Shown here: positions 10,799-28,913 of the stretch, piece after piece
Layout: the number at the start of each line of letters is the position of its first letter
Numbering within the stretch: position 1 is the stretch's first letter
IMG/VR virus record: IMGVR_UViG_3300031933_000062
Location: 1 to 28,913 of that record
Origin: a virus
DNA: 28,913 nucleotides
Strand: one strand, 5' to 3'
The notes under the pieces: model-generated
The model's database searches: none
The model's input: the letters and a program-made list of their open reading frames with translations, nothing else
Told to the model about the DNA's origin: nothing
Position numbers and translations under genes: made by a program

Positions 10799-11449
10799 AT
10801 GAAAAAGTATTTTTATGTCTATTACTCTTATGAAGAGTTTGGTAATGGATATATTGGAAAAAGAGAATGTAAATGTCTTCCAGAAGAAGATATAAATTAT
10901 TTTGGAAGTTTTAGAGACAAAACTTTTAAACCAACTCAAAAAATCATTTTAGAAACTTTTGATAGCGTAGAAGATGCACTTGAGGCAGAATGTGTTCTTC
11001 ACGACTTTTATGAAGTAGATAAAAATCCTCATTTTGCCAACAAAGCAAGGCAAACTTCTAAAAAGTTTTATTATATTACTCCAAGTGAAAATATGATTGG
11101 TGAAAATAACCCAGCAAAAAGACCAGAAGTTAGAAAGAAAATATCAGATTCTGCTAAAAATAGAAAAGCATCTGAAGAAACCAAAAGAAAAATGAGTAAA
11201 TCACATATGGGAAGAATATCCCCAAAAGGAATGCTTGGTAAAAAACTTACAGAAGAGCAGAGGGAGCAAATAAGAGAAAGAAAAGTAGCAAGAGATAATA
11301 AAACTTGGGTAATGAAAGATCCGGAAGGAAAAATACATACCACAAATAATCTCAAATATTTTTGCGAACAAAATAATCTGACCGATTCAGCTATGCATCA
11401 TGTAATTTGTGGTAAAAGAAATCATCATAAAGGTTGGACGAGGGCTTGA
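10799..11449 (+). CDS. GIY-YIG homing endonuclease (SegG-like position)
   Basis: A 216-residue freestanding endonuclease. The nuclease domain starts YFYVYYSYEEFGNGYIGKRE (residues 4-23; GIY-YIG strands with the Arg), then CKCLPEED, DKTFKPTQKIIL, and EAECVLHDFYEVDKNPHFANK with the catalytic Glu. About residues 105-155 hold NUMOD3-like DNA-binding repeats (SEETKRKMSKSHMGR), and the end (NNLKYFCEQNNLTDSAMHHVI) looks like a helix-turn-helix of NUMOD1 type. It is a paralogue of the 12539-13363 product. It lies just upstream of gene 32, the location of segG in T4. A clear GAGAAG ribosome site precedes the ATG. Confidence 0.85.
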   Translation: MKKYFYVYYSYEEFGNGYIGKRECKCLPEEDINYFGSFRDKTFKPTQKIILETFDSVEDALEAECVLHDFYEVDKNPHFANKARQTSKKFYYITPSENMIGENNPAKRPEVRKKISDSAKNRKASEETKRKMSKSHMGRISPKGMLGKKLTEEQREQIRERKVARDNKTWVMKDPEGKIHTTNNLKYFCEQNNLTDSAMHHVICGKRNHHKGWTRA

Positions 11450-11517: not shown

Positions 11518-12432
11518 ATGTCATTTGCAAATCTTAAAAAACAATCCAAACTAGGTTCTTTAACTGAAAAACTAGTTAAAGAAGTTCAAAAAATGAATAA
11601 TAGTAGTAGTTCGGGGGATGAGCGTTTCTGGAAACTCGAATGCGACAAAGCAAATAATGGTTATGCGGTAATTCGCTTTCTTCCTGCTCCTGATGGAGAA
11701 GACCTGCCATTTGTAAAACTTTATAGTCACGCATTTCAGGGAACCGGAGGTTGGTATATTGAAAATAGTAGGACTACTATTGGAGAAAAAGATCCAGTTT
11801 CGGAATATAATTCAGGTCTCTGGAACTCTGGTATAGATTCCAATAAAGAAATTGCTCGCAAACAGAAACGCAAACTGACTTATATTTCTAACATTTATGT
11901 CGTAAAAGACCCCGCTAATCCAGAAAACGAAGGTGGTGTTTTTCTGTATAAATTCGGTAAAAAAATCTTTGACAAACTTACTGCAGCGATGCAACCTGAG
12001 TTTGAGGATGAGGAATCAATTGACCCATTTGATTTCTGGAAGGGTGCTAACTTTAAACTGAAGGCAAAGAATGTTGCCGGATATCGTAATTATGATTCGA
12101 GTGAGTTTGCCGTTCCCGGACCTCTTCTGGATGATGATGATGCTCTGGAGGCACTATGGAAGAAGCAGAACTCTCTTGCTGAACTTGTTGCCCCAAGTCA
12201 GTTTAAGTCTTATGAAGAACTGAAGACTCGTCTTGATTCTGTTCTTGGAACTAAAGGTTCTCGTCGTACTGATGAAGAAGTTAATGATGAGGATGACTAT
12301 CGTGGTTCGGCACCATCACTAACCGAGGATCTTCGTGGAGAACTCAATAGTCTGAAATCATCTCGCTCTGTTGCGTCTGATGATGAGGATTTTGATGAAT
12401 TGTCATATTTCGAAAAGTTAGCTTCAAATTGA
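11518..12432 (+). CDS. 32: Single-stranded DNA binding protein gp32
   Basis: A 304-residue protein (T4 gp32 is 301). The basic N-terminus SFANLKKQSKLGSLTEKLVKEV corresponds to the cooperativity domain; the OB-fold core follows (GDERFWKLECDKANNGYAVIRFLPAP, pieces at about residues 37-62, then SHAFQGTGGWYIENSRTT and DPVSEYN); the C-terminus is strongly acidic (DDEDFDELSYFEKLASN) as in T4, where it docks partners such as gp59. The T4 zinc site is not seen: only one cysteine is present, as expected of cyanophage versions. It coats ssDNA in replication, recombination and repair. It has its own promoter and terminator. Confidence 0.95.
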   Translation: MSFANLKKQSKLGSLTEKLVKEVQKMNNSSSSGDERFWKLECDKANNGYAVIRFLPAPDGEDLPFVKLYSHAFQGTGGWYIENSRTTIGEKDPVSEYNSGLWNSGIDSNKEIARKQKRKLTYISNIYVVKDPANPENEGGVFLYKFGKKIFDKLTAAMQPEFEDEESIDPFDFWKGANFKLKAKNVAGYRNYDSSEFAVPGPLLDDDDALEALWKKQNSLAELVAPSQFKSYEELKTRLDSVLGTKGSRRTDEEVNDEDDYRGSAPSLTEDLRGELNSLKSSRSVASDDEDFDELSYFEKLASN

Positions 12433-12538: not shown

Positions 12539-13363
12539 ATGGAACTCAAAGAGTATCATTATGTCTATTACTCCTATGAAGAATGGGATAGGGGATATTT
12601 TGGTAGTAGAACTTGTAAATGCTTACCAGAAGAAGACATAAGATATTTTGGTTCTTATGCAGATAAAACATTTAAACCAACTCAAAAGATAATCTTAAAG
12701 GATGATTATGTTACAAGAGAAGAAGCATACACAGATGAGATTATCTTACAAAATTACTATAAGGTAGTTGAGAATCCACACTTTGCCAATAGGTCATATC
12801 AAACTTCTACTGGGTTTAGTCAAAAAGGAAGAATTGCTTGGAACAAAGGAATCCCTAGAGATCCAGAAACTATAAGAAAAATGAGTGAAAGTAGGAAGGG
12901 AAAACCTTCTTCCAACAAAGGAAAAAAGATGAGTTTGGAACATAGGCAAAAATTAAGTATTGCTTGTAAGGGCAGGAAGGTGTCAGAAGAAACAAAGAAA
13001 AAAATAAGCAAAACGACAAAAGGAAAAAAATTAACTGAAGAACATAAAAGAAAAATTGCAGATGCAAATAAAGGAACTCCAAAAACTATGACTGAAAAAA
13101 GGAAACAATCAGACATAGAAAAAGGTTTAAAGGCAAGAGGAAAACTGAAAAAAAAGTTTAGCGAAGAAACTAAAAGAAAAATAAGCGAAGCAACTAAAGG
13201 AAGAGTTCCTTGGAATAAAGGATTAATGGGAGTGCAAAAAAATCCAAGATCAATAAAAGTATGTTATGGTGGGATAATATACGAATCCATAAAAGATGCT
13301 ATGGAAAAAAATAATAAATCACGGAATTATATTAAAAAATACGGAAATATGTTGTTATCTTAA
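12539..13363 (+). CDS. GIY-YIG homing endonuclease with NUMOD3 repeats
   Basis: A 274-residue freestanding endonuclease. The nuclease domain starts YHYVYYSYEEWDRGYFGSRT (residues 5-24), with CKCLPEED, DKTFKPTQKIIL and NPHFANRSYQTS shared with endonuclease 2, so the two are paralogues. Residues about 100-235 contain serial NUMOD3-type repeats of the form K-x-S-E-E-T-K-x-K-I-S-x-x-x-K-G-K that bind DNA along the minor groove. The C-terminal YGGIIYESIKDAMEKNNKSRNYIKKY resembles NUMOD1. It lies directly after gene 32 and converges with gp53, the stop codons one base apart, with no separate terminator between them. Confidence 0.85.
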   Translation: MELKEYHYVYYSYEEWDRGYFGSRTCKCLPEEDIRYFGSYADKTFKPTQKIILKDDYVTREEAYTDEIILQNYYKVVENPHFANRSYQTSTGFSQKGRIAWNKGIPRDPETIRKMSESRKGKPSSNKGKKMSLEHRQKLSIACKGRKVSEETKKKISKTTKGKKLTEEHKRKIADANKGTPKTMTEKRKQSDIEKGLKARGKLKKKFSEETKRKISEATKGRVPWNKGLMGVQKNPRSIKVCYGGIIYESIKDAMEKNNKSRNYIKKYGNMLLS

Positions 13364-15468: not shown

Positions 15469-16284
15469 GTGCCTAGTATCCGCAGAATATCCGACTTTAA
15501 ACCACTATTTACCAATTTAGCACAAACTTCTCATTATCAGTTAATATTTGGCGGTCTTCCATCAGATCTACAAAGTTACCTTATAAAAAGAGGAGTTTCT
15601 CCATTTTTTATTGGTGAATCTGCTGGTCTTTTGTGCTATAACGCATCATTACCTGCGTCTAATCTTACTACCAAAACTGTTGATGGAAATTTTACCGGAG
15701 TTTCTGAAAACTTTGCCGTTGCCAGAACATATGGAGAAATAACTCTTGATTTTTATGTTGATTCGAACTACTTAATGATAAAATTTTTAGAGTCTTGGAT
15801 GGAGTTTATTTCGAGTGGGTCTCATAATCCCATAGGAAATCAATTCGCAGGTCCCGTACATCAAGGAGAATCAAATTATTTCGTAAGAATGCAGTATCCG
15901 GAAACTTACAAGACAAGTTTTACTAAAATTATTAAGTTTGACAGAAATTATGAATACTTTAATCAAATAGAATACACTTTTGTTGGACTTTGGCCTGTGA
16001 GTATAAGTCCTCCGGCAGTTGCTTATAATCAATCAGATGTGTTAAAGATTTCGGCAACTTTTAAATATGATCGTTATATTGCTGGTAGAGCATTAAGTTT
16101 GAATAGATTTATTGGTAATGATAATAATCAGGAAAGTACTGTCAAGAGTAATTCTACTGGAACTTTAGTCCCAGTTAGAGGAACTAGTGGTGTTGTTTTT
16201 TATGATCGAAGTATTGATACAAAAACTACTGCAGAAGTAAATAGAAGATTTTTCAATTCTTATGGTGATCCAATTATTAACTAA
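15469..16284 (+). CDS. 54: Tail tube initiator gp54
   Basis: A 271-residue protein beginning at a GTG (MPSIRRISDFKPLFTNLAQT), with AAAGG about eight bases upstream. YQLIFGGLPSDLQSYLIKRG, LLCYNASLPASNL, FTGVSENFAVARTYGEITLDFYVD (pieces between residues about 23 and 102) and the later QIEYTFVGLWPVSISP carry the tail-tube fold of gp54 and gp19. In T4 gp54 sits on gp48 and starts tail tube polymerisation. The non-ATG start overlaps the minus-strand late box region. Confidence 0.88.
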   Translation: MPSIRRISDFKPLFTNLAQTSHYQLIFGGLPSDLQSYLIKRGVSPFFIGESAGLLCYNASLPASNLTTKTVDGNFTGVSENFAVARTYGEITLDFYVDSNYLMIKFLESWMEFISSGSHNPIGNQFAGPVHQGESNYFVRMQYPETYKTSFTKIIKFDRNYEYFNQIEYTFVGLWPVSISPPAVAYNQSDVLKISATFKYDRYIAGRALSLNRFIGNDNNQESTVKSNSTGTLVPVRGTSGVVFYDRSIDTKTTAEVNRRFFNSYGDPIIN

Positions 16285-16314: not shown

Positions 16315-17034
16315 ATGCCTTTACCAAAGATTGTAACGCCGACATATAGTTTAGAAATACCATCTATTAAGAAAGAAATTAAATATAGACCTTTTCTCGT
16401 AAAAGAAGAAAAGATTTTAATTATTGCTATGGAAAGTGAAGATCCAAAGCAAATTGCCGAAGCACTTAAGACCGTAATTGGAAATTGTATTATTACCAGA
16501 GGTATTAAAGTAGATCAATTATCAATTTTTGATATTGAATATATTTTCTTAAACGTTCGGGGGAAATCTGTCGGAGAAGACGTTGATGTTCTTTTAACTT
16601 GCCCTGACGATGGAATAACTCAGGTTCCGGTAACAATAAATCTTGATGATATTTCGGTTGTGGTAAAACCCGAACATTCTAGAGATATTAAACTTGATGA
16701 TACTTTGAAATTAAGAATGAAGTATCCTTCTATGAAGGAGTTTATTAAAAATAATTTCTCAAATGATGGGGGAATGGGTGTAGATGATACTTTTGAGATG
16801 ATTGTATCTTGTATAGATCAAATTTACTCAGAAGAAGAGTCTTGGCCTGCATCAGATTCTACCAAAAAAGAACTAGAAGAATTTTTAGAGCAATTGACTT
16901 CTCAACAATTTAAAGAGATTGAAAAATTCTTTAATACGATGCCTAAACTTTCTCATACAATTTCAATCAAAAATCCCAATACTGGTGTGGAAAGTGATAT
17001 TACATTAGAAGGGCTAACAAGTTTTTTCGCCTAG
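16315..17034 (+). CDS. 26: Baseplate hub assembly protein gp26
   Basis: A 239-residue protein of the T4 baseplate (gp26-type) family: LPKIVTPTYSLEIPSIKKEIKYRPFLVKEEKILIIAMES (pieces at residues 2-41), then IITRGIKVDQLSIFDIEYIFLNVRGKSVGE in pieces at about 64-94, typical of the family. It acts in assembly of the central hub. The frame ends TSFFA-stop, but the preceding TTTTTTC and a stem-loop suggest that a fraction of ribosomes shift -1 and continue into gp51 (17028-17210). Confidence 0.85.
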   Translation: MPLPKIVTPTYSLEIPSIKKEIKYRPFLVKEEKILIIAMESEDPKQIAEALKTVIGNCIITRGIKVDQLSIFDIEYIFLNVRGKSVGEDVDVLLTCPDDGITQVPVTINLDDISVVVKPEHSRDIKLDDTLKLRMKYPSMKEFIKNNFSNDGGMGVDDTFEMIVSCIDQIYSEEESWPASDSTKKELEEFLEQLTSQQFKEIEKFFNTMPKLSHTISIKNPNTGVESDITLEGLTSFFA

Positions 17035-17060
17035 GATTGGCGCATGAGGATCTTGCGTCA
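17022..17060 (+). promoter_or_regulatory. Probable -1 programmed frameshift signal
   Basis: Slippery heptamer T-TTT-TTC at 17022-17028, in the right phase (AGT TTT TTC in the gp26 frame, re-pairing as TTT TTT). Nine bases on is a 7-bp stem TGGCGCA (17038-17044) / TGCGTCA (17054-17060), one G-U pair, nine-base loop. The zero frame stops at 17032 (TAG), inside the spacer. Confidence 0.75.
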
Positions 17061-17210
17061 TATTATAAAACTAATTTTTCTCTAATTCAACATCATAAAT
17101 ACTCTTTAGAAGAGTTGGAAAATATGATTCCTTGGGAGAGAGAAATTTATATAAATTTACTTCATCAGTATATTGAAGAAGAAAATATGAAGAACCAATC
17201 TAATGGATAA
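17028..17210 (+). CDS. 51: gp51-like hub assembly segment (frameshift product of gp26)
   Basis: The -1 frame after the slippery site encodes RLGLAHEDLASYYKTNFSL and later HKYSLEELENMIPWEREIY, about 60 residues, the recognisable cyanophage gp51-type segment. It has no credible start of its own: the ATG at 17044 is in another frame, TTG at 17037 has no spaced ribosome site, and the first in-frame ATG would lose the conserved beginning. Expression as a gp26-gp51 fusion by -1 shift is the simplest reading, analogous to tail assembly chaperones of lambda-like phages (G/GT). Its end overlaps the next gene by eight bases. Confidence 0.75.
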   Translation, partial: RLGLAHEDLASYYKTNFSLIQHHKYSLEELENMIPWEREIYINLLHQYIEEENMKNQSNG

Positions 17211-18714
17211 AGAAAATTCCGTACCATCAACTTCTTTGGTTGGTCTTCAGGATCAACTCAATACCATTCGTTCGGAAATTTTTACAACAAATGTTAATCT
17301 TCAAGGTATTGGAAAGATACTAGAATCTGATAGATCACTAGATCAAAGGTATCTTTTAGAAGAAAGAGATGAAGAAAAAAAACTTTTAGAATCAAAAATT
17401 AGACAAGGAGCAGAAAATCAACTAGAACAAAAAGTTTCTGCTTCTCTTCAATCGCCATTAAGTTCCACCGAAAAAAATCTAAATTCAATTTTTAGCAAAA
17501 TAACTACTGCTCTTGGAGCATTATTTGGATTTTTTGGCAATAAAATCCTACAAGGATTTAAATTAAGTGCTAAACTTGGAATTGGAGCACTTACTGGAAT
17601 TGGAAATCTTCTAAAAGGATCTTTTGGATTTATTACTTCCACATTAGGAACATTAAGTAAAGGTTTTACCTCTGTACTATCAGGAATTGGAGGAATTACT
17701 GGAAAAGTTATTAAATCTTTATCAGCACTTGCTGCATCTCCATTTAAGGCAATCGCAGGTTTAGTCACCTCATTATTATCAGGACTTAGAATTGCCGCTC
17801 CTGTTGCTGCTGTTGGCGCTGGTGCATCTGGTATATTATCGTTTTTAACTAAAGCACTTGGTATTGGTGCTAGAATTTCCACCGCAACGGATGCTTTTAC
17901 AAATATTCAAGAAGGAGATTACGCTACGGGTGCTGTAAATGCTGCAGCAACCTTTGCTCCTATTCCATTACCAGCTTATATTCTTGGTGGAATGAAAGCG
18001 ACCGGAAATGAATTAGATCTTTCTAATTTTAATCCTTCTGGAATTGTCGAATCGGTAAGTTCTGGATTTTCTGGACTTATGAAATCCGGGTCAGATTTTT
18101 TGTCTGGATCTGGATTAGATCTTGGTTTTTTAAATAATCCGGCACCAGAAGTAAAAGGTACTGTAGAGGAAGGAACGCCGCAACCATCAGTCCAACCACA
18201 AAGTCCTATGATTCCTTCTGCTGCTCCAAAACCATCACCGGCAGCAGAACCACAATCACCGGCAATTCCTCCACCAACTCCTGAAATGGTGAATAAATTC
18301 CAAATGGCTTTTGACAATAGAGATAAATCTTTTGCAAGAGGCAGAATTGAATCTGCTTGGAAAAATATGAGTCCGGTAGAACAACATCAAGCAAAACGAT
18401 GGGTAGAATCTAAAGGACATTCTTGGAGCGTAATGAAATTGCCGGAACCAAATCCAATTCCAATACAATCTCCATCTGGACCAGTTAGTCTTGAAGTACT
18501 TCCATTTAACCCACAATCACCACCAAAACCGAATCTTGGAAATTTGCCAGAACCACCAGCAGATGTAGTAGTACTTGGGAATAATAAGGAGCAACCATCA
18601 TCTGTGATCGCAAGTGATTCACAAACAATTACGGATGTTCCTCTCATTCCTTCTGGAAATCCTGATAATTTTTATACATTATATTCTCAGGTTAATTATA
18701 ATGTAGTGTTCTAA
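17203..18714 (+). CDS. Tape-measure-like baseplate hub protein
   Basis: A 503-residue protein. Residues about 10-90 are charged and helical (coiled coil), about 95-270 are Gly/Ala-rich hydrophobic segments (LGIGALTGIGNLLKGSFGF, SALAASPFKAIAGLVTSLLS, AAPVAAVGAGASGILSFL) of the kind tape-measure proteins insert in the membrane, and about 315-470 are Pro/Ser-rich. The C-terminus (PSGNPDNFYTLYSQVNYNVVF) may dock to the hub. The location between gp26/51 and gp27 matches T4 28-29, so it is a gp29-type candidate, though shorter than expected for a long tail. The start overlaps the gp51 frame. Confidence 0.6.
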   Translation: MDKENSVPSTSLVGLQDQLNTIRSEIFTTNVNLQGIGKILESDRSLDQRYLLEERDEEKKLLESKIRQGAENQLEQKVSASLQSPLSSTEKNLNSIFSKITTALGALFGFFGNKILQGFKLSAKLGIGALTGIGNLLKGSFGFITSTLGTLSKGFTSVLSGIGGITGKVIKSLSALAASPFKAIAGLVTSLLSGLRIAAPVAAVGAGASGILSFLTKALGIGARISTATDAFTNIQEGDYATGAVNAAATFAPIPLPAYILGGMKATGNELDLSNFNPSGIVESVSSGFSGLMKSGSDFLSGSGLDLGFLNNPAPEVKGTVEEGTPQPSVQPQSPMIPSAAPKPSPAAEPQSPAIPPPTPEMVNKFQMAFDNRDKSFARGRIESAWKNMSPVEQHQAKRWVESKGHSWSVMKLPEPNPIPIQSPSGPVSLEVLPFNPQSPPKPNLGNLPEPPADVVVLGNNKEQPSSVIASDSQTITDVPLIPSGNPDNFYTLYSQVNYNVVF

Positions 18715-28205: not shown

Positions 28206-28913
28206 ATGAAACATTCATATACAATAGAAGAATTTAAAAAAGCTGTTCAAGGAAGTTATTCTATTGCTCAGGCACTTACTAAACTTGGTGTATCTCCAAG
28301 AGGAGGTAATTACAGAGTATTTAAAAAATTTGAAAATCTTTATGCGGTAGATACTTCTCACTTTACTGGTCAAGGTCATTTAAAAGGAAAAACACATAAC
28401 TTTAATACTATTCCATTAAGTGAGATATTGGTTAAAGATTATGAATATAGTTCAAATAAACTTAGAAAAAGATTAATAAGTGAAGGAATAAAGGAATATA
28501 AATGTGAATGCTGTGGATTGAAAGAATGGTTGGGAGATCCTATTCCCTTAGAATTAGATCATATTGATGGGGACCATTATAATAATACATTAGAAAATTT
28601 AAAAATCTTATGCCCAAATTGTCACGCTAAAACCCCAACATATCGTGGTAAAAATAAAAGAAGTAAAAATTCACAAACATTAAAAAATAAAAATCAAATA
28701 GAAAAAATTAAAAAAGTTTATAATTGCTCTTCTTGTAAAGTTGAATTAAAAAGAAAATCCAAAACTGGTCTTTGCTTTTTATGTCATTCAAAATCTCAAA
28801 GAAGAGTTGAAAGACCTTCTAAAGAACAATTATTACAAGAAGTAAAAGAAAGTTCTTATCTTGCTGTAGGTAAAAAATATGGAGTTAGTGATAATTCTAT
28901 TCGTAAATGGTTA
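28206..28913 (+). CDS. HNH homing endonuclease (3' end beyond window)
   Basis: 236 codons without a stop, running off the window. The N-terminal helix-turn-helix is YTIEEFKKAVQGSYSIAQAL. The HNH domain (about residues 98-145) has YKCECCG and CPNCH as zinc pairs around LELDHIDGDHYNNTLENLKI, with the catalytic His-Asn-His. A second zinc finger has CSSCK and CFLCH (about 176-200), and the end (SYLAVGKKYGVSDNSIRKWL) is another helix-turn-helix. It is freestanding, 46 bases after an intron-bearing tRNA, the arrangement seen when an endonuclease drives spread of a neighbouring intron. No clear Shine-Dalgarno element; the region before the ATG is the hairpin arm. Confidence 0.88.
   Translation, partial: MKHSYTIEEFKKAVQGSYSIAQALTKLGVSPRGGNYRVFKKFENLYAVDTSHFTGQGHLKGKTHNFNTIPLSEILVKDYEYSSNKLRKRLISEGIKEYKCECCGLKEWLGDPIPLELDHIDGDHYNNTLENLKILCPNCHAKTPTYRGKNKRSKNSQTLKNKNQIEKIKKVYNCSSCKVELKRKSKTGLCFLCHSKSQRRVERPSKEQLLQEVKESSYLAVGKKYGVSDNSIRKWL

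Follow-up and report, generated by a model that had tools for sequence, protein, structure and literature searches.

A candidate −1 frameshift joining gp26- and gp51-like segments of a probable tail assembly chaperone in a T4-like phage contig related to cyanophages

In phage lambda, the tail assembly chaperone (TAC) is made as gpG and gpGT, and Xu and colleagues reportedly described in 2004 this pair and other tail assembly chaperones that depend on a −1 frameshift. The lambda slippery site is GGGAAAG. Chaperones of this G/GT type come in two forms at a fixed ratio, the long one in the minority; they bind the tape measure protein, do not occur in the virion and are needed for tails to form. 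In Vandenendeviridae and Andersonviridae, a conserved poly-T −1 site with the motif GTTTTT lies at the end of TAC-N, and the tail encoded beyond it was earlier annotated separately or not at all (PMC12846349). PMC10885494 and PMC12846349 both credit Vladimirov, Gautam and Davidson (2022) with identifying the chaperone genes of T4-like phages. The first of these citing papers relates, with reference to the 2022 study, that some T4-like phages carry short and long chaperone genes in place of frameshifting, and the second attributes to it the poly-T slippery sites in T4-like TAC-N genes. T4 gp26 and gp51 are both listed as hub assembly chaperones (PMC3004832), and the annotation of Acinetobacter phage Apostate names gp26 and gp51 as tape measure protein assembly chaperones. 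Going by the two citing papers, the idea of a shared origin of hub and tail chaperones, also raised in the first-pass annotation of the locus described here, is already published (Vladimirov 2022), and for these phages a system of this type has essentially been described before, its central idea included. Given that earlier work and the Apostate annotation, the present locus would be a new and well-supported instance of something known.

The locus lies in a viral contig of 28,913 nucleotides (IMG/VR record IMGVR_UViG_3300031933_000062), analysed over its whole length and called the window below. Its relevant features are as follows.

15469–16284, + strand: tail tube protein gene, upstream context (PF23849, E 5.6e-13; phrog_45)
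16315–17034, + strand: gp26-like short form (TAC-N), 239 aa, 0 frame (PF12322, phrog_150; predicted N-terminal fold like the HK97 TAC)
17008–17013, + strand: weak internal Shine-Dalgarno (SD)-like GAAGGG, 8 nt ahead of the heptamer (sequence comparison)
17022–17028, + strand: slippery heptamer T_TTT_TTC, in phase (ORF phase, conservation)
17022–17210, + strand: −1 frame tail, gp51-like, 62 codons and a TAA stop (phrog_634, C-terminal part of phrog_150, purifying selection)
17032–17034, + strand: 0-frame TAG stop of the short form (ORF reading)
17038–17060, + strand: putative stimulatory hairpin, 7-bp stem 17038–17044/17054–17060, spacer 9 nt (folding, covariation)
17203–18714, + strand: gene overlapping the end of the tail; possible tape measure protein, weakly assigned (tape-measure PHROGs, E 1e-4 only)

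A PF12322 (T4_baseplate) domain spans the whole short form, matching profile positions 2–219 of 219 (E 2e-75; 253.7 bits against a cut-off of 24.5), as expected of the T4-like gp26/gp51 family, and the best PHROGs assignment is phrog_150 (baseplate hub; E 1.5e-82). Among cultured phages, the closest relative to turn up was Synechococcus phage S-SRM01, with identities of 78% for gp26 and 85.5% for the tail; a genome-contig search returned no chromosomal relatives. An alignment of 18 diverse rows proved too variable for scanning. The gene ends in ...AGT TTT TTC GCC TAG, in which T_TTT_TTC is phased as a tandem −1 slip requires and stands three codons ahead of the gp26 stop; the ORF phase thus confirms the in-phase heptamer reported in the first-pass annotation. 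Read in the −1 frame from 17022, the sequence is open until TAA at 17208–17210 (FFRLGLAHEDLASYYKTNFSLIQHHKYSLEELENMIPWEREIYINLLHQYIEEENMKNQSNG), and the predicted long form (TAC-NC) would comprise 298 aa, with a junction peptide that spans TSFFRLGLAHEDLASYYK.

An in-phase heptamer near the end of a short gene, with the −1 frame open beyond it, is the arrangement of G/GT-type genes, and a short and a long form arising from a −1 slip at this place would be common to this locus and lambda. The genomic position may also be alike, between a tail tube gene, firmly assigned here, and a possible tape measure gene, weakly assigned from PHROGs matches and with no Pfam match to the product of 17203–18714. 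Unlike GGGAAAG of lambda, the heptamer of the window is T_TTT_TTC, and a search for sequence matches between the window proteins and lambda-type −1 frameshift chaperone families found none. In having a poly-T −1 site that ends TAC-N and a tail that is mis- or unannotated, the locus resembles the TACs of Vandenendeviridae and Andersonviridae, which belong to other phage families and have GTTTTT instead.

Conservation of the heptamer was a check set beforehand, with its loss among relatives to count against frameshifting, and its outcome favoured the frameshift. Among 269 loci with a gp26-like gene, grouped into 144 clusters at 85% identity, an in-phase TTTTTTN is kept in 133 clusters, each with an open −1 tail, and its last base is C in 103, A in 20, G in six and T in four of them. 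The remaining 11 clusters comprise six T4-type loci with separate genes 26 and 51 and five loci of Ackermannviridae. As background, the same genes hold 22 in-phase TTTTTTN at 28,345 other codon sites. The codon preceding the heptamer is variable (Ser, Ala, Asp, Asn or Thr) but ends in T in every one of the 133 clusters; the first Phe codon is TTT throughout and the second heptamer codon is Leu in 26 clusters. A variable yet always T-ending preceding codon and the exchange of Phe for Leu indicate that nucleotides, and not a Phe-Phe pair, are being conserved. Codon usage gives a log10 P of about −31 for the T-ending preceding codon and about −18 for TTT as the first Phe codon, values that ignore shared descent and therefore overstate the significance. 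The heptamer is spread over Kyanoviridae and some Straboviridae (phages of Vibrio, Aeromonas and Citrobacter) and occurs as well in rhizobial, Caulobacter, Stenotrophomonas, Acidovorax and Pseudomonas phages.

A 7-bp stem-loop nine bases past the heptamer, also part of the initial description, is indeed present. Together with a small inner helix it folds at −10 kcal/mol, which by itself is within the range of shuffled sequences (z −0.86; 38 of 200 shuffles were equally good), so that the case for it rests on comparison with relatives. Over 132 clusters, the 45 bases past the heptamer have a mean fold-energy z of about −2.6, against values near 0 at positions elsewhere. The stem of the window is part of an 11-bp stem found in many relatives; in 42 of these, 96% of the cells of the extended stem are paired, both sides have changed in 16 cells, and one pair displays a compensatory U-A/G-C/A-U exchange. 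Its covariation score was reached by none of 500 shuffles. Another clade has a different hairpin in the same place. No Rfam family matched the region.

A second candidate stimulatory element lies upstream. An internal SD sequence is known from E. coli dnaX, and the SD-like element that precedes the heptamer in relatives of the window resembles it. Of 125 clusters, 62 have GGAGG exactly 10 nt ahead of the heptamer and 36 more have GAGG or GAGGG at 9 nt, the background frequency of GGAGG being 0.7%. This element coincides with a conserved LEG motif, the Glu of which is encoded by GAG in 96 of 115 cases (29% in the background), yielding GGAGG upstream of the heptamer. The window itself has a weak version, GAAGGG only.

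The −1 frame runs into a conserved gp51-like segment, as had been proposed: the tail has matches to phrog_634 (‘baseplate hub assembly catalyst’; E 1.1e-27) and to the C-terminal part of phrog_150 (E 7.7e-8), the latter a hint that some members of this family carry the tail in one chain. It is open in all 133 clusters, with a length of 57–69 codons wherever its end is present in the sequence, while shuffling yields a stretch open over 57 codons in only 0.8% of cases. Where codons of paired relatives differ at a single position, 70% of the differences are synonymous in the −1 frame, the other two frames giving 18% and 8%. By this measure, the tail evolves as a protein in the −1 frame only and under purifying selection.

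Every sequence test run supports frameshifting, and three other accounts of the locus have to be set against it. Public records annotate the tail as a gene of its own (‘gp51, baseplate hub assembly catalyst’), and it might be a separate small protein translated by reinitiation just past the gp26 stop, without any frameshift. The statement in the first-pass annotation that the tail lacks its own start is accurate only in part: in the window, a TTG not preceded by an SD stands in frame five codons past the heptamer, and an ATG lies within six codons of the heptamer in 78 of the 133 clusters, some with overlapping TGATG or TAATG. What stands is that an SD-like sequence precedes such a start codon in only one of the 133 and that 33 have no ATG, GTG or TTG within 12 codons of the heptamer, leaving frameshifting as the only ready route to the tail there. 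Moreover, reinitiation would leave TTTTTTN, its phase and the hairpin unconserved, and in T4-type phages the homologous tail is fused to a gp26-like domain. Pure reinitiation is thus very improbable. Somewhat more room, within what is still an unlikely account, exists for both routes operating together, i.e., a frameshifted long form plus some reinitiated free tail protein in those phages that have an ATG. An ATG at codon five past the heptamer is the first start codon more often than any other (62 of 133 clusters), but it comes without an SD-like sequence, the Met may be kept simply for the sake of the protein, and the window has TTG.

The third account, in which the heptamer is there by chance or a pseudogene or sequencing error has split a single gene, has a negligible probability. 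In-phase TTTTTTN does occur four further times in the checked genes of this AT-rich window; however, the same site, phase and tail recur in 133 clusters, which come from many samples and span several phage families, and the tail is under purifying selection. Chance, a pseudogene and pure reinitiation were accordingly all rejected on conservation.

The preferred reading, which we consider very probable on sequence grounds, is that one message gives rise to both a short and a −1 frameshifted long form of a tail assembly chaperone; the gp26-tail fusion originally suggested is supported by the conserved heptamer, −1 coding and hairpin covariation. We infer the slip itself, its frequency and the chaperone activity of the products. 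Most ribosomes would halt at TAG 17032 and release the short form of 239 aa. A minority would shift back by one base on U_UUU_UUC, where tRNA-Phe could pair again in the P and A sites, with help from the hairpin that follows and, for most relatives, also from the SD-like sequence about 10 nt upstream. The slipped ribosomes would read 60 further codons to complete the long form of 298 aa. If the products act as lambda gpG/gpGT do, coating of the tape measure protein would probably fall to the short domain and recruitment of tail tube subunits to the C-terminal tail.

Structure prediction suggests, in addition, a TAC-like fold. In a model of the short form (pLDDT 87.8; alignment rows from the window and viral contigs only), residues 1–95 are nearest, in VIA-align, to HK97 gp13 (2ob9, Z 8.0), Rbstp2171 (3fgx, 7.8) and YqbN (3klu, 7.1), values around 8 being borderline by the guidance of the program itself; a PICI protein follows at Z 5.0 and unrelated chains at 4.1 or below. 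The proteins of 2ob9, 3klu and 3fgx are all described as TACs (PMC9603447). The protein of the window differs from them in being about 140 residues longer and in an identity of 5–10%. Foldseek of the same model against the PDB gave nothing significant (2ob9, E 1.9), searching solved structures by sequence gave no relative, and a model of a T4-type gp51 (pLDDT 82.3, 8 rows) had no TAC match in either PDB comparison. Because of the Foldseek result and the gp51 model, the TAC-like fold predicted for the short form is regarded as suggestive. The missing match of gp51 is perhaps due to the 8 rows of its alignment and does not mean a different fold.

The contrast originally drawn with T4, in which genes 26 and 51 are separate, holds insofar as there are two genes, but gp51 is not just a small C-terminal piece. 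In T2, the two genes are divergent neighbours, and both products match PF12322 over its full length (E 9e-64 and 4e-55). In the phrog_150 alignment, gp51 reaches position 280 of 282 and gp26 stops at 235. An HMM built from the −1 tails picks out the C-terminal end of each of the eight T4-type gp51 proteins tested (positions 200–245 in T2) and none of five gp26 proteins. Judged by these matches, T4 gp26 and gp51 are paralogs, gp51 consisting of the same domain plus a homologous tail; T4 gp26 is therefore the counterpart of the short form and gp51 that of the long form, within the same PF12322/phrog_150 family, and T4 obtains both forms from two genes. T4-type phages thus differ from the window in having two paralogous genes without the heptamer, where the window has one gene and a proposed frameshift.

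A tree of these proteins contains a branch (98/91) that separates T4-type gp26 and gp51 from the proteins of the frameshift loci and Ackermannviridae, and a divergent Campylobacter gp51 groups with the latter side. The tree is unrooted and has long branches, and the placement of gp26 of Cronobacter phage leB in it is uncertain; a duplication in the T4-type lineage would fit it. In leB (L106, 3001–4294), gp51 and gp26 lie in tandem on one strand with an overlap of a few bases, an arrangement that may stand midway between a single frameshifted gene and the divergent genes of T4. In Campylobacter phage IBB_35 (L095, 2422–3162), a fused long-form gene is present and no gp26 lies beside it in the stretch examined. 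In Ackermannviridae, a 51-like tail follows gp26 in the −1 frame without a TTTTTTN heptamer: gp26 stops at 2741 (L097), 2804 (L102), 2744 (L103), 2723 (L104) and 2714 (L105), its 0 frame ends in ATT TTC ATT TAA, CTT TTC AAG TAA or GCT TTC ATG TAA, and an overlapping TAATG is present in three loci and absent in two. Slightly short of an even chance, in our estimate, is the scenario in which marine and freshwater T4-like cyanophages have in common a dnaX-like cassette of three parts (internal SD about 10 nt upstream, T_TTT_TTN and covarying hairpin), the T4 lineage replaced it by duplication, and Ackermannviridae, with a −1 tail but no standard heptamer, use another, undescribed route.

The frameshift reading would correct many cyanophage annotations, which omit the tail or give it a gene of its own under the name ‘gp51 hub assembly catalyst’. 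It supports the view of T4 gp26/gp51 as short and long tail assembly chaperones. It also offers a compact and deeply sampled case of a two-form requirement solved by frameshifting or, in other relatives, by two genes. In the records of cyanophages S-WAM1 (L003), DSL-LC03 (L004), S-SRM01 (L005) and P-SSM2 (L006), the annotation of the tail is inconsistent, e.g., a separate gp51, a hypothetical protein or nothing at all, and it is joined to gp26 in none of the records opened.

Elsewhere in the window, two NUMOD3 homing-endonuclease-like genes (10799–11449 and 12539–13363) flank the gene of the gp32 single-strand-binding protein (11518–12432). An ORF cut at the contig end (28206–28913) has an HNH-like CxxC...LDHIDGD...CPNCH motif in its translation and, from this motif, probably encodes another homing endonuclease.
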